From a virus, in IMG/VR virus record IMGVR_UViG_3300036401_000407, positions 1 to 28,370 of that record: a DNA stretch of 28,370 nucleotides. One strand, given 5' to 3'. The translations under genes were made by a program, and so were the position numbers. The notes under the pieces were generated by a model. That model ran no database searches, was not told the DNA's origin, and worked only from the letters and a program-made list of their open reading frames with translations. How positions within the stretch are numbered: position 1 is the first letter of the stretch; every line of letters begins with the position of its first letter. Positions 2,835 through 13,539 of the stretch are shown here, one piece after another.

Positions 2835-3071
2835 CTACCGAATGGTCTTTGTGTTAATCAGTAGCTCGAAACACTCCGTTAAGAGTTCATTCAATTTCAG
2901 CCCTCGGTCCAGGGCCGTTTGCTTGAAACGCCGCACGAAGCTCGGGGGCATGCGGAACTGCAGGGGGAGATAACCCGCGGATGGTGTGGATCCTCTCTGG
3001 ATGGCCGCCTCTTTCGATCGCACGGCCGCCGGTTTCAGATCCGCACCCCCCAGCGGGACAGGTTTAGGCAT
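2835..3071 (-). CDS. Small ribbon-helix-helix-like protein, probable ParA partner/centromere-binding adaptor
   Basis: This 78-residue protein has a disordered N-terminal half (MPKPVPLGGADLKPAAVRSKEAA) and a C-terminal half with the pattern of a ribbon-helix-helix domain: PLQFRMPPSFVRRFKQTALD, then RGLKLNELLTECFELL. That means a beta strand, a helix ending in Lys/Arg, and a second helix. Its ATG overlaps the end of parA (ATGCCTAA), so the two are translationally coupled. Small RHH proteins directly downstream of ParA ATPases (ParG, Omega type) bind the centromere and repress the operon, and that is the inferred role. It could instead be only a transcriptional repressor. Confidence 0.65.
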   Translation of the reverse strand: MPKPVPLGGADLKPAAVRSKEAAIQRGSTPSAGYLPLQFRMPPSFVRRFKQTALDRGLKLNELLTECFELLINTKTIR

Positions 3072-3726
3072 TTGGTTGCACCTCCGTTATTGGTTTGGGT
3101 GATTTCATTCTTTGATGAAAACATGATTTCACCTCTAACCACAACCTGGCCACCTCTTCCGCGGCCTTGTGGTTGCCTATCTCCGGCGCTGTGATGCCGC
3201 CGGTCATGGCCGATGCGTAGGCGATCCGGTCAGAGATGATGGTGGACGCCACCCGGCCATAGCGGGACAGCGCGCTGGCGGCCTGGTTCGTAATTAAGGC
3301 CTGGCTTTTGGCCTGGGTGACCACGAACAGGAAATGGCGGTGGCCCTGCTTTACCAGGTTGACCGTTTCCGCCACGCTCCACAGGTCATTAGGGGAGGGG
3401 CGAACGGGGATCACGCACAGGTCCGCCAGATCCACCAGCCCGGCGGTCTGTTCGTTGATCGATGGGGCGGTGTCGATAAAGCACACCTGGGCCCCGGCTG
3501 TCCGCATCTCCCCCAGGGCTTCCCGGATCCGGGAGAATGGGACCTGGGCCAGCTTAGGGGTTGCCGCTTCCCTGCGCTCGTGCCAGCGGGACAGCGTCCC
3601 CTGCTTGTCCGTATCTATCATCCAGGCCGGTCCGTCCCCTGCCAGGGACGCCTGGACCGCCAAGTGGGCAGTGAGCATTGTTTTCCCGGATCCACCCTTC
3701 TGCGACAAAACGACCACAGTATGCAC
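3064..3726 (-). CDS. parA: ParA-family partition ATPase
   Basis: This 220-residue protein has a deviant Walker A box near the N-terminus (VVVLSQKGGSGKTMLTAHLA, KGGSGKT at about 10-16), a Walker A' region (WMIDTDKQGTLSRWHERR) and a Walker B-like strand (VCFIDTAPS). These define the short ParA class that lacks an N-terminal DNA-binding domain. The start is a GTG (codons V-H-T) with AAGGTGG placed for ribosome binding; there is no in-frame ATG nearby. ParA uses ATP-dependent, non-specific nucleoid binding to move plasmid copies apart. Its presence in a phage normally means the prophage is kept as a plasmid. It is divergent from the plus-strand cassette and shares the AT-rich 3727-3885 region with it, the likely site of the centromere and promoter. 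Confidence 0.88.
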   Translation of the reverse strand: MHTVVVLSQKGGSGKTMLTAHLAVQASLAGDGPAWMIDTDKQGTLSRWHERREAATPKLAQVPFSRIREALGEMRTAGAQVCFIDTAPSINEQTAGLVDLADLCVIPVRPSPNDLWSVAETVNLVKQGHRHFLFVVTQAKSQALITNQAASALSRYGRVASTIISDRIAYASAMTGGITAPEIGNHKAAEEVARLWLEVKSCFHQRMKSPKPITEVQPNA

Positions 3727-3885
3727 AGTTAATCCACCTTTCGTGTGCGGGCCCTCACATTCGATGTTTGCTTGATGTGCTTGCCATCACACTACCAAAC
3801 CCCCCATGCTGATTTCAACATTTCTTGATTTCAGTTGTTTACACATTACAGTTATGTGCTGTATATTGTGAGTGGGGGATTTGTT
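3727..3885. promoter_or_regulatory. AT-rich divergent regulatory region, candidate parS centromere
   Basis: This 159-base gap lies between parA and the plus-strand cassette and is clearly more AT-rich than its surroundings from about 3805 on. It contains TGATTTCA twice (3810-3817 and 3826-3833, 16 bp apart), ATGTGCT twice (3775-3781 and 3854-3860) and a small inverted pair TGATG/CATCA (about 3773-3789). Such short repeats are the usual targets of RHH partition proteins, but there is no long iteron array, so assignment as the centromere is inference from position. Confidence 0.5.
3838..3867 (+). promoter_or_regulatory. Probable sigma70-type promoter of the plus-strand cassette
   Basis: TTTACA (3838-3843) and TATATT (3862-3867) are separated by 18 bases, 18 bases ahead of the first ATG of the cassette. 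This is the best -35/-10 pair in the region, and it overlaps the repeats proposed for partition or operator binding, which would let the RHH protein control both directions. Confidence 0.5.
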
Positions 3886-4041
3886 ATGAAAATGACCATC
3901 GGACAACGGGTAAAAAACACCTACGGCCACCAGGGAACAGTGGTGGACGTGTGGGACAACGCCGTAACAGTGCAGCCGGACCGCCACACCGGGACGCCTG
4001 AAACCTGGCACATCACCAAAACGTTCCCGGTTGGCCGGTAA
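3886..4041 (+). CDS. Small beta-rich protein of unknown function (first gene of plus-strand cassette)
   Basis: This 51-residue protein runs from the ATG at 3886, with GGGGGA six bases upstream; a longer in-frame start at 3835 would lie inside the promoter. The sequence MKMTIGQRVKNTYGHQGTV continues into a segment with VVDVWDNAVTVQPD. The alternating hydrophobic residues and GQRV...G..GTVV pattern resemble a small SH3-like or KOW-type barrel, which often binds nucleic acid or protein. I do not recognise a named family. It is the promoter-proximal gene of the cassette and lacks the leader hairpin carried by later genes. Confidence 0.6.
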   Translation: MKMTIGQRVKNTYGHQGTVVDVWDNAVTVQPDRHTGTPETWHITKTFPVGR

Positions 4042-4054
4042 CCCTCCAGCCCGA

Positions 4055-4076
4055 GGACCGGCGGGTTATCCGGTCC
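4055..4076 (+). promoter_or_regulatory. Leader hairpin 1 (upstream of 4092 gene)
   Basis: A 7-bp perfect stem GGACCGG/CCGGTCC encloses the loop CGGGTTAT, followed three bases later by AGGAGAAC and the ATG at 4092. It is one of five similar hairpins in this cassette, all with GG-CGG at the 5' side and AT-CC at the 3' side of the loop. Confidence 0.8.
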
Positions 4077-4091
4077 ACCAGGAGAACGACG

Positions 4092-4304
4092 ATGGGAAAC
4101 AGAATCATTTCGACCAGCCCGGTGGAAGGAACCGCCCAGGGGCTTATAGACGCCTTGCAATCCTTGACCAACTGTGCCGCCACCACCCCGGACCAGATCC
4201 ACGTGGAAGCCTTTGAAAACAGCCTGGAGGAAGTCCAGTTTGCCCGCCTGGTGGAATACGACCTGACGGACGGCAGCCACGTGTACAGCATCATTTTGCG
4301 GTAA
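4092..4304 (+). CDS. Hypothetical protein in plus-strand cassette
   Basis: This 70-residue protein starts at an ATG preceded by AGGAGAACGACG. The sequence (MGNRIISTSPVEGTAQGLID... ending YSIILR) shows a likely alpha/beta arrangement with a helix (GLIDALQSLTNCA) and a C-terminal beta hairpin (ARLVEYDLTDGSHVYSIIL). No family is recognised. It is second in a co-directional run of small genes under the promoter near 3850, separated from its neighbours by gaps of about 50 bases that each carry a hairpin. Confidence 0.65.
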   Translation: MGNRIISTSPVEGTAQGLIDALQSLTNCAATTPDQIHVEAFENSLEEVQFARLVEYDLTDGSHVYSIILR

Positions 4305-4321
4305 CCCACCACCAACCCGGC

Positions 4322-4340
4322 GGGGTGGCGGATCCACCCC
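4322..4340 (+). promoter_or_regulatory. Leader hairpin 2 (upstream of 4353 gene)
   Basis: A 7-bp perfect stem GGGGTGG/CCACCCC with the loop CGGAT abuts AGGAGAACGACA and the GTG start at 4353. The stem sequence differs from hairpin 1 at several paired positions while complementarity is kept, and the loop ends are conserved. Confidence 0.8.
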
Positions 4341-4352
4341 AGGAGAACGACA

Positions 4353-4685
4353 GTGACCACACTGCAAACACACATCGACGCCATCATGGACAAACACCTG
4401 GTTACATCGATTCCGAACCAGGTGGCGGCCTACATCGACGGCACCAACACCGAACCCACGGCCCTGGGAAGCCCGGCCTTTGTGGACGAGTATTTGCGGC
4501 AATCTGCCAAGCCCGCCGCGGTTCCGGCCCCCCAGGGTGGGGTTACCATCCTCGAGGCCATCGAAAACGCCCTCCAGTTCCTCGAGGCCCTGGGTTACAA
4601 GGGTGGGGACATCGTGGATGACCTGGAGCTGGTCCAGGCCCGCCTGGCTTGCCACCATCCCAAAATTGGCAACACGCTGCTGTAG
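4353..4685 (+). CDS. Hypothetical protein in plus-strand cassette
   Basis: This 110-residue protein starts at GTG, supported by AGGAGAACGACA directly upstream. It looks largely helical: an N-terminal helix (LQTHIDAIMDKHLV), a middle segment, a Pro/Ala linker near residue 52 (KPAAVPAPQGG), then two helices (ILEAIENALQFLEALG and GDIVDDLELVQARLACHHP). No family or catalytic motif is recognised. It is the third gene of the cassette. Confidence 0.65.
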   Translation: MTTLQTHIDAIMDKHLVTSIPNQVAAYIDGTNTEPTALGSPAFVDEYLRQSAKPAAVPAPQGGVTILEAIENALQFLEALGYKGGDIVDDLELVQARLACHHPKIGNTLL

Positions 4686-4709
4686 GGTCCACCCGAACCA
4701 CCATGCCGG

Positions 4710-4729
4710 GCCCGGCGGCTAATCCGGGC
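4710..4729 (+). promoter_or_regulatory. Leader hairpin 3 (upstream of 4746 gene)
   Basis: A 6-bp perfect stem GCCCGG/CCGGGC encloses the loop CGGCTAAT. ACCAGGAGAAC follows at once, the same ribosome-binding context as hairpin 1, ahead of the ATG at 4746. Confidence 0.8.
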
Positions 4730-4745
4730 ACCAGGAGAACAGGAA

Positions 4746-5096
4746 ATGCAGATCACTTACAGCTTTACCCCCTCCGAGGTGGCCACCATCCTCCACGGTT
4801 TGCGGTTGATCCAGGAACAGTGCGACGGGGCAGGGGATTGCACGGCCGGTATCTGTGAACACTTCCAAGATGACGAGGACCTGACCATCGCGGAAATCGA
4901 CGCCCTGTGCGAACGGATCAACCCGCGGGACGGGGACGCGCCCACCTGGAAGGAATGGCCCACCCCGGACCGGACAGCCATAGGCGACACCCCCACGTGT
5001 GAGGACTGCGGGGAGGCCTCCTGTATCTGCGAGGAACCCAACGAACGCACCCCGGACGATGAATTCAGCGGGGACCTGGACGGGGAAAAACTATGA
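4746..5096 (+). CDS. Acidic hypothetical protein with C-terminal Cys cluster
   Basis: This 116-residue protein starts at ATG after AGGAGAACAGGAA. The N-terminal part (ITYSFTPSEVATILHGLRLIQEQCDGAGDC) is probably helical. The rest is strongly acidic, and a CEDCGEASCIC cluster near residue 85-95 could bind a metal. The overall charge is very negative, a property also found in DNA-mimic inhibitors, but that alone does not show function. Its stop overlaps the start of the next gene (ATGA at 5093), so the two are translationally coupled. Confidence 0.65.
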   Translation: MQITYSFTPSEVATILHGLRLIQEQCDGAGDCTAGICEHFQDDEDLTIAEIDALCERINPRDGDAPTWKEWPTPDRTAIGDTPTCEDCGEASCICEEPNERTPDDEFSGDLDGEKL

Positions 5097-5740
5097 CCGC
5101 CGAACCTATCCTTGTATCTTGCCCCGGGCCGCACACGGATACATACACGTGCGGCCATTCCTATTCCCTGGCACCTGGCCACCAGTCCCGTCACCTGGAC
5201 CAACCCTGCCCCCGGTGCGGTGGAGCCACGGCAATCGCCGAGGAAGCCCCCAACCCTGGAGACTTTAACACCGCCGCCGAACACTATCCACCCGCATCGG
5301 AACTCCTGGTGCGGGAGTTTGACCCTATCCCGGAATGGGTGGCCCGGGGTTTCCCAACCAAACCCGCCAAGCTGGAGGCAGCCATCGCCAGATACTTCCG
5401 GGACCGGGACCTGGATGCAGCCAGGTACGAAGAACTGCGGATCCGCGGGGCCGAGGCGCTGTCCCAATACGATCGCATGATGCAGGGGGACGACGGAGCC
5501 CTCCGCACGGCCTTATCCCTCAAGTTCAATCACATTAGTTACCAGATGATGCACCTCCAGTTCGCCCGGACCACCTGGCCCACCCTATACCAGTTCATCC
5601 AGGACAGCCCCGCGCCACCACCGCAACCCCCCGAGGCCGAGCCCGAAGAGGACCCGGAGGACTTTGGGTTGGCGACGGATCCGGGGGAGGTCCTCGAGGA
5701 CCTGGGGATTGCCGACGACAGCCAGCTTTCATTGTTCTAA
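5093..5740 (+). CDS. Zinc-ribbon-containing hypothetical protein
   Basis: This 215-residue protein starts at the ATG of an ATGA overlap with the gene before it. Residues about 10-45 hold a probable zinc ribbon: CPGPHTDTYTCGH, then QPCPRCGG. A helical middle follows (FDPIPEWVARGF and KLEAAIARYFRDRDLDAARYEELRIR), then a Pro/Glu/Asp-rich tail ending SQLSLF. The gene has no leader hairpin of its own because it is coupled to its neighbour. Function unknown. The terminal hydrophobic SLF after an acidic tail resembles short motifs that dock on clamp-type or SSB-binding partners, but that is only a resemblance. Confidence 0.65.
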   Translation: MTAEPILVSCPGPHTDTYTCGHSYSLAPGHQSRHLDQPCPRCGGATAIAEEAPNPGDFNTAAEHYPPASELLVREFDPIPEWVARGFPTKPAKLEAAIARYFRDRDLDAARYEELRIRGAEALSQYDRMMQGDDGALRTALSLKFNHISYQMMHLQFARTTWPTLYQFIQDSPAPPPQPPEAEPEEDPEDFGLATDPGEVLEDLGIADDSQLSLF

Positions 5741-5746
5741 ATCCGG

Positions 5747-5767
5747 CCACCGGCGGGGATCCGGTGG
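5747..5767 (+). promoter_or_regulatory. Leader hairpin 4 (upstream of 5780 gene)
   Basis: A 7-bp perfect stem CCACCGG/CCGGTGG with the loop CGGGGAT is followed by GAAAGGGAAGTG and the ATG at 5780. It belongs to the same set as hairpins 1-3 and 5. The region after the stem is nearly identical to that of hairpin 5. Confidence 0.8.
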
Positions 5768-5779
5768 GAAAGGGAAGTG

Positions 5780-6133
5780 ATGGACAGGGAACCAAAAGCA
5801 CCGCCGTTCCCACTTGGCACCCGGTTGCGGTACACCGGCACGTATCAATCCAACACCTACGACATTGACCCCATAACCAGGGCCCACCGGGAGGTGCCTT
5901 TGTGTGCCCCCGGTATGGTGGTGTTGATCGACAAGGTCCACGAAGGCCACCGGGGAACCCTGGTGCACCTGGTGGACCACGATGGCCCCTTGTACTACGA
6001 CGACGACCAGCCCATCCTGGACACCACTGTTGACGGGTGGAGCGTTTACCACGTCCAGGCCTGGCAAGGTGGGATCCAGCAGGGCCGGGTGATCGACCAC
6101 GAGAGCAAGCACGAATGGGAAGTGATCCAATGA
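5780..6133 (+). CDS. Hypothetical protein with SH3-like beta pattern
   Basis: This 117-residue protein starts at the ATG at 5780, because GAAAGGGAAGTG is correctly spaced for it; a GTG one codon earlier is also possible. FPLGTRLRYTGTY opens a run of beta strands with Gly/Asp turns (GMVVLIDKVHEGHRGTLVHL, YHVQAWQGGIQQGRVIDH), consistent with a small beta-barrel domain that describes its own strand as a sensor or binding module. No family is recognised. Its stop overlaps the next start (ATGA at 6130). Confidence 0.6.
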   Translation: MDREPKAPPFPLGTRLRYTGTYQSNTYDIDPITRAHREVPLCAPGMVVLIDKVHEGHRGTLVHLVDHDGPLYYDDDQPILDTTVDGWSVYHVQAWQGGIQQGRVIDHESKHEWEVIQ

Positions 6134-6300
6134 CCCCGGATCTGCGGGAGTTATTGAAGAACCCAACGCCGGTGAAGTGTGAAGGATGCGCGAAGGTAAG
6201 GCGGTGCCTGGAGGCCGGTCCAGGTCCAGCGAGTCCATGTGTGATTTTCGTCAAGGCGCCGGCGGATCCGGCGGGAAAGGGAAGTGATGAGCGCCTTTGA
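6130..6300 (+). CDS. Tiny Cys-rich protein overlapping both neighbours
   Basis: A 56-codon frame starts at the ATG of an ATGA overlap (MTPDLRELLKNPTPVKCEGC) and carries CEGCAKVRRC plus a later PC, a possible zinc knuckle. It ends inside the start of the following gene (6287-6300 overlap). Leader hairpin 5 and the next ribosome binding site therefore lie within its coding sequence, a dual use of the DNA. The coupled start and the Cys spacing argue that it is real, but it is short and unrecognised. Confidence 0.5.
   Translation: MTPDLRELLKNPTPVKCEGCAKVRRCLEAGPGPASPCVIFVKAPADPAGKGSDERL
6257..6273 (+). promoter_or_regulatory. Leader hairpin 5 (upstream of 6287 gene, inside 6130 gene)
   Basis: A 6-bp perfect stem CGCCGG/CCGGCG with the loop CGGAT is followed by GGAAAGGGAAGTG and the ATG at 6287. 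The hairpin is conserved although it lies inside another coding frame, which suggests it is selected for itself. Confidence 0.8.
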
Positions 6301-6517
6301 TCCGAAGGAACTAGACGCCAGGCTCCAGCAGTGCGCCGCCGAACTGCCCGCCGGGTATACCGTGACCATTCACGTCGAAGCCGGGGCCGGATGGGTGGAC
6401 CTTACCGGCCCGGACGGGGACCCTATCGACTACCCTTGCAATCACGAATATGGGTTGATAGAGGCCGTGACCGACGCGCTGGACTACGCGAAAGAAACCG
6501 CCGCTGGGAAGAGGTGA
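6287..6517 (+). CDS. Hypothetical protein in plus-strand cassette
   Basis: This 76-residue protein starts at the ATG at 6287 with GGAAAGGGAAGTG upstream. It reads as a beta-alpha protein: a helix (FDPKELDARLQQCAAELPAG), two strands with a turn (YTVTIHVEAGAGWVDLTGPDG) and a C-terminal helix (LIEAVTDALDYAKETAAG). No family is recognised. It overlaps the end of the tiny Cys-rich gene and is followed five bases later by the next start. Confidence 0.65.
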   Translation: MSAFDPKELDARLQQCAAELPAGYTVTIHVEAGAGWVDLTGPDGDPIDYPCNHEYGLIEAVTDALDYAKETAAGKR

Positions 6518-6522
6518 AGTGA

Positions 6523-6768
6523 ATGATAGGCCTCGTGATGTTCTCGCTGGCGGGTAAGGCCACACTAAAAGAGCTTGCCCAGCCTATGGATGATGAAGTT
6601 ATCCGGCCGGTGCATTGGCGGAACCCTATCGCCGACGATGACCCGCGGCCGGTCGCACATCTACTCCGGCCCGACTGGAGCGAGTACACCACCTTTGAAG
6701 AGCCCAGGCCGCCGGTGCCTAAGAAGCCCGAGCGCCTACGGGAAGTGTGGAGATTGAAGCAGTCCTAA
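6523..6768 (+). CDS. Hypothetical protein, last gene of the hairpin-leader cassette
   Basis: This 81-residue protein starts at an ATG after GAGGTGAAGTGA. The N-terminal MIGLVMFSLAGKATLKELAQ is mildly hydrophobic but too short for a sure signal or membrane anchor. The rest is Pro/Arg/Asp-rich and probably extended. It has no leader hairpin, is packed against the preceding gene, and is followed 14 bases later by a strong terminator, so it closes the operon. Confidence 0.55.
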   Translation: MIGLVMFSLAGKATLKELAQPMDDEVIRPVHWRNPIADDDPRPVAHLLRPDWSEYTTFEEPRPPVPKKPERLREVWRLKQS

Positions 6769-6782
6769 AAACGACCGATTAC

Positions 6783-6818
6783 GGGACCACCGGGGAACCA
6801 CCTGGTGGTCCCTTTTTT
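6783..6818 (+). terminator. Rho-independent terminator closing the plus-strand cassette
   Basis: A perfect 9-bp stem GGGACCACC/GGTGGTCCC (6783-6791 with 6804-6812) with a 12-base loop is followed by six Ts (6813-6818). It sits just after the last cassette gene and separates it from the recombinase. Confidence 0.92.
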
Positions 6819-6892
6819 GCGCGATGAAAGTGTCCCGAAACCTTGCCCGAAATCAAAGCACCAGAAACCCGCGCCGTGTTATCTTTTGGGCC

Positions 6893-7450
6893 ATGAGAAT
6901 CGGCTACGCAAGGGTGTCCACCATCGACCAGTCTTTGGACCTGCAACGGGACGCCCTGGACCGGGCCGGATGCGTCCAGGTGTACGAAGAGAACGGGTCC
7001 GGCAAGACCGCAGACCGCCCGCAGTTGTCCGCAGTGATGAAGGCGCTACGACCAGGGGACTGCCTGGTGGTGTGGCGGTTGGATCGCCTGGGCCGGAACC
7101 TTTCGGACCTGGTCACCCTGGTGGGGGAGATGGACCGCCGCGGGGTCAACTTCGAATCCATCACGGAGAACCTGGAAACTCACTCGGTCACCGGCAAATT
7201 GATATTCCACATTTTCGCCGCGCTGGCAGAGTTTGAACGGTCCTTGATCCGCGAACGGACCATGGCGGGGCTAAAGGCCGCACGAGCCCGCGGACGGATG
7301 GGTGGCCGCCCGGCCAAGCTGTCCCCGCGCCAGGTGGAGACACTTCGGGCGATGTTGGCCGCGGGAAAGGTGCCGGTCCTCGAGGTGGCCAGGGTGTTCG
7401 GGATTGGCAAGTCCACCCTGTATCGCCACATTGCGGAACCGGCCGCCTAG
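6893..7450 (+). CDS. Small serine recombinase (resolvase/invertase family)
   Basis: This 185-residue protein starts at the ATG at 6893 (MRIGYARVSTIDQSLDLQRD), which matches the normal start of this family; an upstream in-frame start at 6824 would add residues with no family match. The catalytic Ser is the S of YARVST, and the Arg cluster is RLDRLGRNLSDLV. The long E helix follows (FHIFAALAEFERSLIRERT), and the C-terminus is a helix-turn-helix (VLEVARVFGIGKSTLYRHI). The length is right for a resolvase or DNA invertase and too short for a large serine integrase. It could resolve plasmid dimers, which suits the nearby ParA, or invert a segment. The stop overlaps that of the convergent minus-strand gene at CTAG. 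Confidence 0.9.
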   Translation: MRIGYARVSTIDQSLDLQRDALDRAGCVQVYEENGSGKTADRPQLSAVMKALRPGDCLVVWRLDRLGRNLSDLVTLVGEMDRRGVNFESITENLETHSVTGKLIFHIFAALAEFERSLIRERTMAGLKAARARGRMGGRPAKLSPRQVETLRAMLAAGKVPVLEVARVFGIGKSTLYRHIAEPAA

Positions 7451-7668
7451 GGTTCGGAAGTGGTGGGATCCTGGGCCAGGATGTCGACCAGGTTGGCGCG
7501 GGCGGTGTCGGTGAGGGTGTTGGCCCCGTCCGTGAGAATCCCATTGACCGCCGAGGTCAACGCGCCAATCCAGGCCCCGGTCTTCTTGCAAACCATGTGG
7601 CCAGTTTGAACGCACCCATGAACCGGGCAAGTGCCATCCGTTTGAATCCGCATCCAGGACCCTCCCAT
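7447..7668 (-). CDS. Small hypothetical protein at the end of the structural operon
   Basis: The 73-residue frame starts at the ATG of a TAATG junction with the gene before it (MGGSWMRIQTDGTCPVHGCV). CPVHGC and a later MVCKK suggest a small metal-binding turn; the C-terminal half (GALTSAVNGILTDGANTLTDTARANLVDILAQD) is helical. An internal ATG five codons in is also possible. It is the last gene of the run and meets the recombinase tail to tail, with no terminator visible between them. Function unknown. Confidence 0.6.
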   Translation of the reverse strand: MGGSWMRIQTDGTCPVHGCVQTGHMVCKKTGAWIGALTSAVNGILTDGANTLTDTARANLVDILAQDPTTSEP

Positions 7669-7952
7669 TACACCAGGGTGACACTTTTCAGTGTGCCGCC
7701 GTCGTTATAGTACAGTTTCACGGATCCCCCGGCGGTGTCCTTCCAAACCTTTGACACCCCCGCGGGGATGTCTAGCACCGTGGGAAGCCCGCTCTTTTGG
7801 AGAGCGCCGACCATCGTTAGGCCACACGCCTCCGCTTGCGGAATCAGGGTTTGCGGGATGGTGTACACCCCATTGACCGGCTTATAGTCCACGCCGGAAA
7901 TGTGAACACAACCACCCGCGGGCCCGAGCATCGATTGCGTTGGAACTGCCAT
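7668..7952 (-). CDS. Hypothetical structural-region protein
   Basis: This 94-residue protein starts at ATG with a GGAGG six bases upstream. It is Gly/Thr/Val-rich with a beta pattern (YTIPQTLIPQAEACGLTMVG, SVKLYYNDGGTLKSVTLV). It lies directly after the tail fibre gene and is coupled by TAATG to the final small gene. Size, beta character and position suit a minor head or tail decoration protein, but no family is recognised. Confidence 0.65.
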   Translation of the reverse strand: MAVPTQSMLGPAGGCVHISGVDYKPVNGVYTIPQTLIPQAEACGLTMVGALQKSGLPTVLDIPAGVSKVWKDTAGGSVKLYYNDGGTLKSVTLV

Positions 7953-8003
7953 ATTGCCTCCTGTGCCTGTTGGGGGCTATTCGCCCGGCCCGTTTTCTAG
8001 TTT

Positions 8004-9215
8004 TTAGTGGACTATACAAACCTGGTCAGGGTCGCCTCCGGTGCGGTAGAAAGCACCCGCGGTGAGCCCGCCACCGATGGCCGCGGCGTTGTTGGCGTAG
8101 ATGGGTAACCCCACAACCTGGAGGGCTGAAGTCGGCGACGCTGTTCCGAATCCGACCTTGCCGGTATTGACAATTAAGCCAACTCCAGCGGGGCAAGGGT
8201 TCGTTCCGTAGTTGATCGCGAGGCCATTGGTGTTTAACTGCCCATAGGTAACGTTATTGATGCGCAGCCAAATGCTGGCGCCAGTAGGAGCGTTCAGGAC
8301 GGTTCCAAGTGAGTACAAAAAGCTGTAATTTGTGACGGACGGTGAGGCGGTATTGGCTCCAAACCAGATGCCGGGATAGCTAGCAACTTGTCCAAGTAGA
8401 GCGGACCCGGCGCCGCTTGCGTTACTAAAAACATTGCCGTTGACTTCGAGCGCCTGTCCTGGGGTGGCCGTCCCGATACCTACGTTCCCACCTGAGAATG
8501 AAGCTGCATAGTTGGCCGTCGCACCCGTAGGAGCGGCGACAATCAACCCGGTAGCCGCCGCGCCCGATGCGGGAAGCGCCGCTACAACCAACCCTTGAGA
8601 GGCCGTGGGTGCAGCGCCGACGCCGAGAGGGATATTGACCTGAGAGGGCAGACGAGCGGCCGCTAGAGTTCCCGAGGCTATGTCAGAGGCCGCTAATACA
8701 ACCGCGCCAACTCTGCCCGCGACACTCAGGACAGCCTCGTAGTTGTCGACCTTATCCCACGTCACTCCGTCAAAGATGGCCCAATCGCCCGCGTGCCAGG
8801 AGGTATTTCCATCGATCACCGTGTTCCCGGCAGTACCCACCTTATAGAACTGCCCAAGGAATCCGTGACCGTTGGTGATGGTAGGCGAGTTGAGCGACGC
8901 ATCCCAGACGCCGGCGAAGTAAAGGGCGCCCGGACCGGGCTCACCCTGGATGCCTTGAGGCCCGTCCGGTCCGGTGGATCCGATGGCACCAGTGAGGCCG
9001 ATTTGCCCGCGAGGCCCGGTCTGTCCCGCCGGTCCCTGCTGGCCGGGTTGCGCCAAGAGTCCCCAACTTGCCGGATCCGATGGGGGCAGTACGCCGGTAG
9101 TGATCGCCAGGGCCACATAAGAGCATCCCAGGTACGTGCAAACGTCGCCGGGTTGATACGTGTTCGTCAGGCGGTAGGCGTCCCGCCAGGTGAATACAAA
9201 CCATGTTGCGTTCAT
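8004..9215 (-). CDS. Tail fibre protein with collagen-like repeats and CBM-like N-terminus
   Basis: This 403-residue protein starts at an ATG overlapping the portal-MuF stop (ATGA) with GGAGGATGAGGG upstream. Residues about 5-50 resemble a carbohydrate-binding module of the chitin-binding 5/12 type (WRDAYRLTNTYQPGDVCTYLG, later PPSDPASWGLLA). A run of Gly-X-Y triplets follows (PGQQGPAGQTGPRGQIGLTG onward, about 52-90). Then comes a long beta-rich region with repeated GNVGIGTATPGQALEVNG and KVGFGTASPTSALQV phrases typical of trimeric fibres and of chaperone-type tail spikes. It should mediate adsorption. The middle is locally lower in GC than the flanking genes, consistent with exchange of receptor-binding domains. 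The C-terminus lacks a visible intramolecular chaperone. Confidence 0.82.
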   Translation of the reverse strand: MNATWFVFTWRDAYRLTNTYQPGDVCTYLGCSYVALAITTGVLPPSDPASWGLLAQPGQQGPAGQTGPRGQIGLTGAIGSTGPDGPQGIQGEPGPGALYFAGVWDASLNSPTITNGHGFLGQFYKVGTAGNTVIDGNTSWHAGDWAIFDGVTWDKVDNYEAVLSVAGRVGAVVLAASDIASGTLAAARLPSQVNIPLGVGAAPTASQGLVVAALPASGAAATGLIVAAPTGATANYAASFSGGNVGIGTATPGQALEVNGNVFSNASGAGSALLGQVASYPGIWFGANTASPSVTNYSFLYSLGTVLNAPTGASIWLRINNVTYGQLNTNGLAINYGTNPCPAGVGLIVNTGKVGFGTASPTSALQVVGLPIYANNAAAIGGGLTAGAFYRTGGDPDQVCIVH

Positions 9216-11440
9216 CCCTCATCCTCCGCCCGAGCGTCTATGTCTGCTTGGCTCATCACCTCGGGAATGACGTCGCACCGACAGCGGGGATGACCGGGAG
9301 GCCCGTCCACCTCGTCGCCGTCAAAATCGAAGGACCCATCCAGCTCCACCACTGTGCCGTCCAACTCCGCGCATATATCGCAGTAGTCGTCCTGGGCCAG
9401 GATCCAGCGCTTTCCCTCCACCACATCGGAGGCCCGCCACCCGGCCAGGTTGCCCTGGACATCGGCGAAGGCGGTTTCGGTTGTGGCTATCAGGTCACAG
9501 CGCGCATCATCGAACCCGGCGAACTCCGCGATTTCCGCGGATAGCTTGTCGTTGCTCCACCCTTCCTCTTCCGCGGTGGCCACCAGGTCCGCCAGGCCCT
9601 CCCTGGTGGTTTCGTCAATCTGCGTCACCAGGTCCGCGGCGTGGTCATCTGCCCACTTGATCGCCTCTTCGTTGGCCTGGTCCAGCATCTTGCCAAGTTC
9701 TTCGTCATCCGCGCTTATCAGGTGGGCCACCTGGTGGAAGCCAGCCGCCGCTCCATCGGCTGCCATTTCCCTAATGCTCTTGTTTAACTTTTTGGTGGTC
9801 TTGTCGCTGGTGGTGATCGAATCGAACGGACCGGACGCGGCCTTGTGGAGGGATCCGGCCAGCTTGAGGGCCGCGGTCTTCTGGCGAGTGAATTCCGCGG
9901 CCATCGTCGCATGTATACCGGCTGTCGCCTTCGTAACAGCCGGCCGAGCTCTATCTATGGGTTGTAATGTAGGCGAAGGCTTTTTTTTTTGAACCCCGGA
10001 GGCCGGGGGTTTGGCTTTACCTGGGGGCGGCGCGGAGGCCGACTCTGACGCCGCTCCAGGCTTTCCACCTGGCGGGTTGCCAGGGGGAACTATTGGGGTG
10101 GGTGGCGCCATCTCTTGTTTTTGCTCGTCGGAGAATGGGTCCATCCCGTAGCCCTGTTGTCTCACTTCGTCCGGGGTCATCCAGGGTTTCCCGGTGCCGG
10201 TCCCCCCTCCCAGGGCAATCTGGAACATCTGGGCTTTCACCAGGGGGTCCGTTATCTCTTCGTCCCGCCAGGCGAACTCGAGATCCGGCGCGCCGTAGCA
10301 TCTCCGGATCACGCCGTCCATAAGGTTTTTGAACCACAGTTTCCGGGGCTCCACCCCTTCCTCCTGGGCGGTCTGCTTGGCGGTCTGCGCGGTGGCCCGG
10401 TTCTGTTCCTTGACCAACGCCTGGGGGGACAGGGAGAAGCACCAGCAAATGATGCGGGCCAGCCACTCATCCACCGCGCCGGTGAGGTCCGGGGCTTTGG
10501 TGCCGACGTAGGTGGTGCCGGACGGTGCCCAGATCCCATGCCGCCGCATCCCGGTTTGGCCGGTCAACACCACGTCCCAATAACTTTGAAAGTCCTTGAC
10601 CTGGTCCGGGGTCATCCCATCGGGCGCGATCAACAGCGCGTCCGGGATGGTGCCCTCCGTGTAGAACTCCGTTTGATGGAGCATCCGCCGCAAAGCCAGG
10701 TTGACGATGTTCACCACCTGTTCCACCGGACCCATGCCATAACTGCGATGGGGCCGCGGGTTGTAGGCGCGAATCATCATCTCGTCAAGGGTGTACTCCC
10801 AGGCAACCACGCCCTTGACCACCTCGGCGTACGCGGGAAGCGGGGGCAGGGGAGTGCGGCCATCCTGACCCACGTAGCGCTTAATCAGGGCCCCATCCAT
10901 CACCTCGGGCAGCTTGAACCCTTTGGTGGTGGGGCGCAGGTACAGGGTCGGCTGGTCCAGGACGTAGTGGTCCTCGAGGATCATTCGTTGCCAGGACAGG
11001 AAATCATTCACCCCATCGGGCTCGGCCAGCCTGTCCACGATGCGCTTGCCGCGGTCCCCGGCGTCCTTGTCGTCCTTGGACTTGATGTCCCACTTCTGGC
11101 CGCCTAACTTGTCCTTGCACGTTTCGATGGCCAGCCGCAACAGGTCCAGGCCGCCCAGGGCCGGATCCGCGATCCGCCGCAACATCGCAAAGTCAACGGC
11201 GTTCTCCCCCTGCTCTCCGCGGGGCCTGGTGCTGGTGTTGACGGCGAAGCCATAATCAAACGCTCGGCCCTTGTCCTGTTCCGGCGCCTGGGGTGGCATC
11301 GGTTCACCTGGTCCGAACCAGCCGCCCGAAAATGATTCCTTGCTTTGGCCGGTGGCCGCGGCCAGCATGTCTAGTTCGATCGGCAACAGCTTGGCCCCAC
11401 TGCTGCGGCCTACGAGGCTGAGGGGTGGTTTACTGGCCAT
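9212..11440 (-). CDS. Portal protein fused to MuF/SPP1 gp7-type head morphogenesis domain
   Basis: This is a 742-residue protein. Residues about 1-440 form the portal: an N-terminal arm, GLDLLRLAIETCKDKLGG, the wing/stem segments, and a conserved helix with SPQALVKEQNRATAQTAKQTA. A Pro/Ala/Gly-rich linker follows (about 440-500). The C-terminal part (about 515-742) is a MuF-like domain ending in a zinc-type cluster: WILAQDDYCDICAELDGTVV, then GPPGHPRCRCDVIPEV. Portals form the dodecameric packaging vertex, while MuF proteins are minor head proteins that are often encoded separately, so the fusion is notable. Inside the linker an A10 run (residues 484-487, Q-K-K-K) is preceded by a hairpin, so slippage could release a portal of about 495 residues without MuF. 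The start overlaps the stop of the 36-residue gene upstream. Confidence 0.88.
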   Translation of the reverse strand: MASKPPLSLVGRSSGAKLLPIELDMLAAATGQSKESFSGGWFGPGEPMPPQAPEQDKGRAFDYGFAVNTSTRPRGEQGENAVDFAMLRRIADPALGGLDLLRLAIETCKDKLGGQKWDIKSKDDKDAGDRGKRIVDRLAEPDGVNDFLSWQRMILEDHYVLDQPTLYLRPTTKGFKLPEVMDGALIKRYVGQDGRTPLPPLPAYAEVVKGVVAWEYTLDEMMIRAYNPRPHRSYGMGPVEQVVNIVNLALRRMLHQTEFYTEGTIPDALLIAPDGMTPDQVKDFQSYWDVVLTGQTGMRRHGIWAPSGTTYVGTKAPDLTGAVDEWLARIICWCFSLSPQALVKEQNRATAQTAKQTAQEEGVEPRKLWFKNLMDGVIRRCYGAPDLEFAWRDEEITDPLVKAQMFQIALGGGTGTGKPWMTPDEVRQQGYGMDPFSDEQKQEMAPPTPIVPPGNPPGGKPGAASESASAPPPGKAKPPASGVQKKKPSPTLQPIDRARPAVTKATAGIHATMAAEFTRQKTAALKLAGSLHKAASGPFDSITTSDKTTKKLNKSIREMAADGAAAGFHQVAHLISADDEELGKMLDQANEEAIKWADDHAADLVTQIDETTREGLADLVATAEEEGWSNDKLSAEIAEFAGFDDARCDLIATTETAFADVQGNLAGWRASDVVEGKRWILAQDDYCDICAELDGTVVELDGSFDFDGDEVDGPPGHPRCRCDVIPEVMSQADIDARAEDEG
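9981..10011 (-). other. A10 slippery run with upstream hairpin in the portal-MuF linker
   Basis: In mRNA sense, the hairpin (10011-9992: AACCCC-C-GG, loop CCT, CC-GGGGTT) is followed after one C by ten As (9990-9981). The zero frame reads through into MuF. Adding one A gives 12 new codons and a stop, and removing one A gives 8 new residues and a stop; both products are portal-only, about 494-496 residues. A homopolymer of this length is conspicuous in GC-rich DNA. Confidence 0.6.
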
Positions 11441-11744: not shown

Positions 11745-13301
11745 TTATGTGCCTACCTGTTCTGCCATTTGGCGGTAAAAATCCACTACGCCCTGGCCGG
11801 AGAATCCGTGATGGAGCCAGTTCATCCCCTGGGTGAAGGCGTCCACATCGTCGTCGTGGGCCATTTTAGGGAACCCGTACAGGTTCTCCAGGAAGTCCGC
11901 AACCCACGGCAGCGAGGGGTCCACGAACACGTTGCCAGCTTCCCAGGTGGGGACCACCGCATGGGCCCGGCTTACCTTGTCCCGGTCCACTGTGATCGCC
12001 ACCAGGGGGATGGCCGTCTCCAGGCGTAACTCCTGCAGCAGTGATTGACCGGATGCCTTGTCCTCCACCAGGAAGGCCTGGGGCCTCCACTTGGCGTTCA
12101 TCGCCTTCACCTGTAGCTTGAGCTCGGGATACCCGGCTTTGTCCTTCCAGCGGTCCAGCAGGTCCCAACCCTCGGCGCGCTCTCCGATGGCCAGCACCAC
12201 ACTGTTGTCGTTCTCTTCCTTCTCTTTGAAGGCGGTATCCGCGGTGAGAATGATGCGCTTGTAAACCTTGAACCGTTGGTGAGTGGCCGGGTCAACCTCT
12301 CCCATCCGTTTGAGGACCGCGGCACAATCGAACGTCCGCACGAAACCATGCTTGAAAATCTGGCCCTCGGCGGGGACCGGCCTTTGCTGGTGCTGCCCGG
12401 CGAATCCCGCGGATCCCAGGCGCTTCCGTTCCGCGGCCACCACATCGGCGGGGAAGCGGGCGGGGAAGAACAGTTCTTTCTCCACCTGGCGGGGATCCGT
12501 CCACCCCAGGCACGTGGGCCGGAAGTCGGGATCCGTTGGCTTCGGGAACTCGTATTCCTCCCGGATAATCAGGACTTCCCAATTTTCCGGTTCCGTCGCG
12601 AGTATGTGGCCGGTCAAGTCCTCTTCGTGCAGCCGCTGCTGGATGATGCAACGAACACCCGTCGACAGGTTGGCCAGCCGGTTGGCCGCCGCACTATCCC
12701 ACCAGGAAATGATGGTGTCCCTGGCCGTCTTGCTGTAGGCCTCCGCGGCGTCGTTGGGGTCATCCACCAGGATCGCGTGGGCCCGGGATCCGGTGATGCG
12801 GGAACCCGCGGACATCGCCCGCCGAAACCCTGTCTTGCTGTTTTTGTAGTGGCCTTTGGCGTTTTGGGCCTTGTCGAAAGCCCAGGACGGAGCGAACACG
12901 CGGCGATACCAGGCAGAGTCCAGGATGTCCCGGCATTTCATCGAGTCGCGGATTGCCACTTCGCCGTTACCTGAGGCGAACAGACCGCGCCACCCTGGTC
13001 CCAGGTCGTTGTCCTCACCTGGTGGTTGAATCCAGATCCAGGCCGGAACGCACACGGACAGGATGGTGGACTTCATACTGCCGGGCGGAACGTTGATTAT
13101 CAGGTTGCGGAGGATCCGGCCGTCCCGGACCAGGCGGCCCTGGACGAGGGCCTGGACGTGGTCGCAAATAACATCCAGGTGCCAGTTCCACACCAGCGGG
13201 GTGGATGGCTCGATGATGGGCCAGGCTTGCTTTACGAACTCGGCGAGGGACCGGCGGGCCCGTTCCGCTTTTACCTGTTCGTATGAGACAAGCTCACCCA
13301 C
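11745..13301 (-). CDS. terL: Terminase large subunit (ATPase/nuclease)
   Basis: This 518-residue motor protein threads DNA into the prohead and cuts it. With the GTG at 13301, which overlaps the preceding stop by eight bases, the Walker A-like box NVPPGSMKST is near residues 70-79, Walker B with adjacent acid ILVDDPND is near 177-184, and the coupling motif region IIQQRLHEEDLTGH follows. The RNase H-like nuclease has its first Asp in ILTADTAFKEKEEN (about 355), a second acid in FLVEDKASGQSL and the terminal acids in KMAHDDDVDAF (about 480-488). An upstream in-frame ATG at 13376 would add 25 residues that lie in the coding region of the neighbouring gene and look unlike terminase, so the coupled GTG is preferred. 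TerS is four genes upstream. Confidence 0.93.
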   Translation of the reverse strand: MGELVSYEQVKAERARRSLAEFVKQAWPIIEPSTPLVWNWHLDVICDHVQALVQGRLVRDGRILRNLIINVPPGSMKSTILSVCVPAWIWIQPPGEDNDLGPGWRGLFASGNGEVAIRDSMKCRDILDSAWYRRVFAPSWAFDKAQNAKGHYKNSKTGFRRAMSAGSRITGSRAHAILVDDPNDAAEAYSKTARDTIISWWDSAAANRLANLSTGVRCIIQQRLHEEDLTGHILATEPENWEVLIIREEYEFPKPTDPDFRPTCLGWTDPRQVEKELFFPARFPADVVAAERKRLGSAGFAGQHQQRPVPAEGQIFKHGFVRTFDCAAVLKRMGEVDPATHQRFKVYKRIILTADTAFKEKEENDNSVVLAIGERAEGWDLLDRWKDKAGYPELKLQVKAMNAKWRPQAFLVEDKASGQSLLQELRLETAIPLVAITVDRDKVSRAHAVVPTWEAGNVFVDPSLPWVADFLENLYGFPKMAHDDDVDAFTQGMNWLHHGFSGQGVVDFYRQMAEQVGT

Positions 13302-13539
13302 GGCAAGCCCGACGCAGCACCCTGGCCCTGGCCATCCGTTCCCGCATATCGGCGCGGCGTTGCCAGTAGCGGTCATCGAACGACTCGCGGCACCGTTCCC
13401 CGCAGATTCGTTTCATCACCTGGCCACCGCGGACTGACTCGAGGGCGATGGTGCCCTCCTGGATCCGGCCGCCACACTCGGAGCAGTGCACCGTCTTTTC
13501 CTGGTAGACCTGGACGAAATCGGATCCAATCAGCGCCAT
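13294..13539 (-). CDS. Small zinc-ribbon protein next to terminase
   Basis: This 81-residue protein starts at the ATG at 13539, chosen for its TAGGAG site. It has CSECGGRIQEGTIAL, then RICGERCRESFDD, a four-Cys ribbon arrangement, and a very basic C-terminal helix (WQRRADMRERMARARVLRRACR). Basic zinc-ribbon proteins of this size are common near phage packaging genes and may bind nucleic acid. It overlaps both the gene before it and TerL. Confidence 0.6.
   Translation of the reverse strand: MALIGSDFVQVYQEKTVHCSECGGRIQEGTIALESVRGGQVMKRICGERCRESFDDRYWQRRADMRERMARARVLRRACRG

Follow-up and report, generated by a model that had tools for sequence, protein, structure and literature searches.

The synthesis of two proteins from one gene by way of a run of As has been described for dnaX of Thermus thermophilus, in which an A9 run gives tau and gamma and slipped mRNAs lead to the shorter functional product (PMC5009743). 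The phage portal-MuF gene analysed here resembles Thermus dnaX in having the long product in frame, a run of similar length and nearby stops in both other frames. It is unlike dnaX in that the latter is a replication gene of a thermophile for which slippage was measured, whereas slippage in the portal-MuF gene is inferred, and in that the long and short states of the portal-MuF gene swap between relatives. The parallel is close, and different bacteria use either slippage or the ribosomal route to obtain the same pair of dnaX products. The same two architectures as in the portal-MuF lineages with an A-run are found in tssM1 of Citrobacter rodentium and tssM3 of Yersinia pseudotuberculosis, where one genome is out of frame and one in frame. 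The out-of-frame homologue makes the fusion by one additional A at about 20-25%, the in-frame homologue shows truncation through slippage at 15-25%, and no ribosomal signals are nearby (PMC4256274). These genes differ from the present case in encoding a non-viral membrane protein of type VI secretion and in being two cases, compared to 36 portal-MuF lineages. In the Roseiflexus IS630 element a stem-loop in the nascent RNA lies directly 5' of the slip site (PMC5009743), as it does in our locus. The IS630 site, however, consists of T5C5, slips with the loss of a base and requires its hairpin, whereas the element common to the portal-MuF lineages is the A-run alone and the hairpin is clade-specific.

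In phages, products with a common N terminus made at a set ratio are known from lambda G/GT, SPP1 17.5/17.5* and 17.1/17.1*, and the capsid and tail of Listeria PSA (PMC6316719; PMC5009743). These are ribosomal frameshifts in tail or capsid genes and not polymerase slips in a portal gene. The MuF-like protein gp7 of SPP1 binds the gp6 portal, is targeted in few copies to the procapsid interior and helps infection to begin (PMC6316719). There the two proteins come from separate genes and meet by binding, whereas in the portal-MuF gene they are fused and the dosage is, by inference, set by recoding. Portal and MuF in one gene are also known from Microbacterium and Arthrobacter phages (PMC7302621; Arthrobacter phage Sonali), and the part of that source that was available reports no recoding for these fusions. 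The Arthrobacter phages Sonali and Mufasa8 (L005:1902-4889 and L006:2134-5136) have portal-MuF proteins of about 1000 aa with an insert between the domains, which is annotated as a MutT/NUDIX hydrolase in the RefSeq copy of Mufasa8. No report of slippage at a portal gene was found in the open-access literature, subscription journals not being covered.

The portal-MuF gene, its A-run and the upstream hairpin

The window, that is the whole stretch of DNA that was analysed (28,370 bases), is an IMG/VR contig with a GC content of 60-63%. Its relevant features are the following.

11745..13376, minus strand: terminase large subunit, the upstream neighbour (PHROG 38, E 3e-88)
9212..11440, minus strand: portal-MuF fusion gene, 742 aa (open reading frame; PHROG 2662 portal protein; PF04233)
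10151..11440, minus strand: portal part, residues 1-430 (PF04860, PHROG 2662)
9941..10150, minus strand: flexible Pro/Ala/Lys-rich linker, residues 431-500, diverged in alignments
9994..10008, minus strand: predicted RNA hairpin 5' of the run, CCCCGG-CCU-CCGGGG, with a 3-nt loop and a 3-nt spacer UUC (-11.2 kcal/mol)
9981..9990, minus strand: putative slippery run A10, CAA AAA AAA AAG, coding for Q484 K485 K486 K487 in frame
9955..9957, minus strand: stop of the 494- or 495-aa product, met when one A is lost (or two are gained)
9951..9953, minus strand: stop of the 496-aa product, met when one A is gained (or the ribosome shifts by -1)
9266..9592, minus strand: MuF domain, residues 617-725 (PF04233 Phage_Mu_F, E 1.6e-9, above the curated cut-off)

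The 742-aa open reading frame matched the PHROG 2662 portal protein over residues 99-735 (E 2e-86), and with a portal domain followed by a MuF domain in a single protein it qualifies as a fusion of the PHROG 2662 type. The PF04860 Phage_portal match (residues 218-428, E 1e-8) was below Pfam's own cut-off; the portal part was 66-72% identical to that of relatives. An AlphaFold model of the fusion had a mean pLDDT of only 46 and was usable for the disordered linker alone, in which residues 444-499 had no predicted secondary structure and the lowest pLDDT of this low-confidence model. A tail-fibre-like gene (8004-9215, minus strand) overlaps the end of the portal-MuF gene and is adjoined by a DNA invertase gene (PHROG 125; 6824-7450, plus strand). 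No inverted repeats of at least 18 bases were found near the invertase at 3000-9300, and an invertible segment was not shown.

The preliminary description of this DNA had reported an A10 run coding for Q-K-K-K in the portal-MuF linker, and this was confirmed, at exactly 9981-9990 on the minus strand. It is the sole run of at least nine in the contig of 28.4 kb, with an A8 at 2714 as the next longest. Gain of one A gives a protein of 496 aa with a new tail of nine residues (AFAYITTHR) instead of 742 aa, and loss of one A gives 494 aa with a tail of eight (SLRLHYNP). The anticipated length of about 495 residues was thereby confirmed, whereas the new codons, previously counted as 12 or 8, number nine and eight. 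The two stops lie close together (TAGATAG). In relatives without a nearby MuF match (L054, L057-L067) the portal gene ends 40-66 residues past the aligned portal, so that the short products predicted here match ordinary portals in length.

The segment with the hairpin was in the top 1.7% for stability within its own gene. The hairpin alone beat shuffled sequences modestly (z -1.7, 13/200) and was absent from the minimum-energy fold of some larger pieces. It had been described as ending one base before the run; a hairpin does exist there, but the minimum-energy stem stops 3 nt before the run, and it is the register AACCCC/GGGGUU, implied by that description, that would end 1 nt before it. A structure 5' of a run has the geometry of slippage-stimulating hairpins or of terminator hairpins. 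At the run no minus-strand terminator was found, only weak plus-strand matches. Strong hairpins of changed sequence occur at the same place in L044/L038, L048 and L008, and a weaker one in L032. The 5' hairpin is absent in L051 and L184, among others, and with a mean percentile of 0.42 over the 36 lineages with an A-run it was rejected as a family-wide element. The proposal that it stimulates slippage can thus be retained for most of the clade of the window, where the hairpin recurs, but not for the wider set of A-run lineages. As it is confined to this clade, the hairpin is at most a local enhancer, and its stimulating role is an inference.

Conservation of the run and the frame of MuF in relatives

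Conservation was judged on portal-only searches that were blind to the linker, in order to avoid selecting by the run. A pattern search with GGTTCAAAAAAAAAAG in IMG/VR gave 17 further portal-MuF contigs and, being biased towards the run, was not used for this purpose. The wider searches in genomes and IMG/VR gave 267 loci with a portal C terminus, or 145 at 90% portal identity; among 398 genomes of the family of the Trinickia host, searched for further isolates, only the same prophage was found. This prophage (L077), from the cultured host Trinickia mobilis, has an in-frame A10. In the close relatives from IMG/VR (66-72% portal identity), every readable linker has A10 in the same frame, except for A9 in L044-L047. 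Lysine codons interrupted by other bases, which would have spoken against a slippery run, were not encountered, as all close relatives have an uninterrupted A9 or A10. This conservation exceeds chance: among 33 other Lys/Gln columns that are conserved in six close relatives, there is none with a third-base A throughout, yet CAA AAA AAA is kept in all of them (in L051 the run codons are offset by two alignment columns). When counted in representatives with at least 55% GC, A-runs of at least nine numbered 28 in 31.7 kb of linker, compared to two such runs of A or T in the remaining 685 kb, which is an enrichment of about 300-fold.

These data bear on the simplest reading, namely that the run is merely four Gln and Lys codons in a basic linker and that a single fused protein is made. 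Fusions without the run do carry comparable Lys-rich motifs immediately ahead of the IDR motif, and some are in frame without any run. Nevertheless, we regard this reading as very improbable, as the third-base A is kept only at the run, the linker is strongly enriched in runs, and 19 lineages have a conserved MuF that is out of frame (see below); for the family as a whole it is already refuted. In L051 (6001-8280), which has an intact A10, the portal reading frame is interrupted upstream of the run by one in-frame stop (AFA*RDEEITDP) at a position occupied by W in relatives. This could be an assembly error, decay or a stop reassignment.

After removal of near-copies, 36 lineages had A8-A10 between portal and MuF, with A8 once and A9 or A10 in 35. 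MuF was in frame in 17 of them. In the remaining 19 it was out of frame, and each of these needs one extra A, which equals a -1 shift, and none the other shift. Without an A-run, out-of-frame MuF was split 4 to 5 between the two frames, which differs from 19:0 (Fisher p 0.001). The lineages are related, and the counts of 36 and 19:0 do not represent fully independent events. In L044-L047, the genomic portal ends in VQKKSVRVH* and one additional A restores the frame of an intact MuF. The four sequences are identical over 1.66 kb and were counted as one virus from four assemblies, and an assembly error as the source of the A9 was rejected. L246 and L252, IMG records with identifiers resembling those of isolate genomes (source unchecked), are likewise out of frame.

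Sequence comparison further indicates that the out-of-frame MuF is under purifying selection. Between L189 and L198, both A10 and out of frame, MuF had a dS of 0.70 and a dN/dS of 0.02. The dN/dS was 0.15 for L246 and L271, 0.22 for L044 (out of frame) and L038 (in frame), and 0.40-0.44 for the more distant pairs L141/L155 and L155/L212. Because the out-of-frame MuF evolves under constraint it is inferred to be translated, most economically through the run; in seven of the 19 lineages the stretch from the run to the MuF domain lacks ATG, GTG and TTG. At the portal-MuF junction of L142, MuF lies in the -1 frame with an overlap of 90 nt and without an A-run. L193 has an A9 at the end of the portal, about 120 nt after the portal match, where one more A opens a frame of 260 codons, with MuF about 1 kb further; the inserted domain may join the portal by the same route.

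In a tree of the portal sequences from 78 representatives, made by a quick method, the well-supported branches required at least seven changes for the out-of-frame run state and at least six for the in-frame run state. Sisters on this tree include L048 (A10, in frame) and L044 (A9, out of frame), as well as L189 (A10, out of frame) and L261 (A9, in frame). Sisters that differ as A9 and A10 would also fit a phase-variation tract, in which replication slippage toggles the fusion between genomes. Random changes by one base should, however, yield both out-of-frame classes, of which only one was seen (19:0), and MuF is strongly selected in the long-lived out-of-frame pair L189/L198, so that phase variation appears scarcely tenable. 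A fusion without the run was present in 41 of the 78 representatives, and many related phages have such a plain fusion, a separate MuF gene or no detected MuF. The earlier suggestion that a portal of 12 subunits would need exactly this arrangement was therefore too strong, and two products are not universally required, since many related fusions lack the run.

Should the short product matter in lineages with MuF in frame, stops are expected shortly past the run. In these lineages the frame with one A fewer met a stop at a median of 4 codons, compared to 16 in the fusions without a run (p 4e-4), and the frame with one A more at 8 compared to 20 (p 0.05). Distances were taken from the homologous point; the sample is small, and a few misplaced motif matches remain in the run-less control. 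An earlier test against positions within the same gene (p 4e-4 for the frame with one A fewer) was repeated in this way because effects of the protein motif were possible. Stops are most clearly enriched in the frame that is entered when one A is lost or two are gained; slips of this kind are not the commonest, and the pattern is unexplained.

Polymerase slippage and ribosomal frameshifting as possible routes

That a single gene yields both a portal and a portal-MuF protein by means of the run, as had been proposed, is strongly supported by the comparison, especially by the out-of-frame relatives that keep MuF, although the event itself is inferred. We have very little doubt that two products are made by one route or the other, and we consider it likely that the run is a programmed site of transcriptional slippage. 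On a template of ten Ts, the polymerase would realign the hybrid of 9-10 bp, giving mRNAs with A10 together with mRNAs that have extra or, less often, missing As. The A10 mRNA would give the 742-aa fusion, whereas the A11 mRNA, and also A9 or A12, would meet stops within 8-10 codons and give a complete portal of normal length (494-496 aa). In relatives with A9 (L044), or with A9 or A10 in the other register, the roles would be reversed, the genome encoding the short portal and a slip by one additional A giving the fusion.

The window has an uninterrupted run of at least nine that is conserved beyond the need of the protein, alternative frames that end soon and, in common with IS630, a stem-loop immediately before the slip site (10008-9994, with 3 nt in between). 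The run length of 9-10 is where, in most bacterial genomes, selection against slippage begins to show (PMC1088944); it is close to the length of the RNA-DNA hybrid, and slippage at such runs is efficient in vivo (PMC5009743). When the polymerase slips at runs of A or T, it mostly adds a single base (PMC5574713), and from this the 19:0 bias in frame is predicted. This bias is equally predicted by -1 ribosomal frameshifting.

Frameshifting by -1, or sliding of the ribosome, on A_AAA_AAG or A_AAA_AAA within the run could make both products as well. The heptamer of the E. coli dnaX frameshift, A_AAA_AAG (PMC5009743), occurs in phase within the run of the window (CAA AAA AAA AAG), and all runs of at least nine contain it or A_AAA_AAA in phase, which counts against an explanation by slippage only. 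Every out-of-frame lineage needs exactly a -1 shift, and sliding of ribosomes on stretches of A is reported (PMC4363877). In addition, the portal-MuF junction of L159 (about 6155-6335) has A6 only, with A_AAA_AAG, a GGAG 8 nt upstream, a stop four codons on and a possible 3' stem. It has the appearance of a classical -1 ribosomal frameshift site that serves the same purpose, and indicates that the phage family can use the ribosomal route. In the lineages with the longer runs, however, the corresponding signals are lacking. A Shine-Dalgarno-like motif within about 17 nt upstream was found in none of the 36 and occurred only at -18 to -23 in five; at the usual distance of a stimulator (about 8-14 nt) there was no motif in the window or in any run lineage, but only in L159 with its A6. 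Downstream structure was not above the background of the gene (mean percentile 0.47; window 0.945), and in the window the 40 nt starting 5 nt after the run had -2.7 kcal/mol, weaker than 94% of the segments of the gene (pseudoknots were not modelled). The structure in the clade of the window lies on the 5' side of the run, a run length of 9-10 exceeds the seven bases that suffice for a -1 shift, and the strongest stop enrichment of the in-frame lineages is in the frame that a -1 shift cannot reach. We therefore consider the ribosomal route possible but unlikely for these runs, and prefer transcriptional slippage, while in the absence of RNA or protein data a shift at transcription and its efficiency remain inferences. 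The synonymous sequence CAGAAGAAGAAG in place of the run would remove the slippage and the ribosomal routes alike.

Implications for the portal ring

Portal rings are treated as assemblies of twelve identical subunits. From a fused gene one MuF per portal subunit is expected, and slippage would relieve this, although the stoichiometric reading is inferred. Both products would probably co-assemble, with an internal MuF on only some subunits of the ring; such a mixed ring is likewise inferred. The fusions without the run (41 of 78) either tolerate a full set of MuF or use another device.

The 36 lineages, the conserved run and the swapped frame states make a strong comparative case that goes beyond the preliminary description, the run, its placement, its conservation, the frames and the selection on out-of-frame MuF all being apparent from the comparison. 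With some reserve, we favour the view that tailed phages and prophages share a recoding switch that is old and widespread, in which slippage at the run sets the number of MuF-bearing portal subunits and the ring is deliberately mixed. Changes of a single base would exchange its long and short states, and in at least one lineage the task would have passed to ribosomal frameshifting. If this is true, standard gene calling, by giving a short portal plus an orphan fragment, overlooks MuF in about half of the lineages with a run. It would then also be understandable that a fusion of two proteins kept at very different copy numbers elsewhere is tolerated, and many phages would build chemically mixed portal rings, with the mixture set by the stutter of a polymerase.
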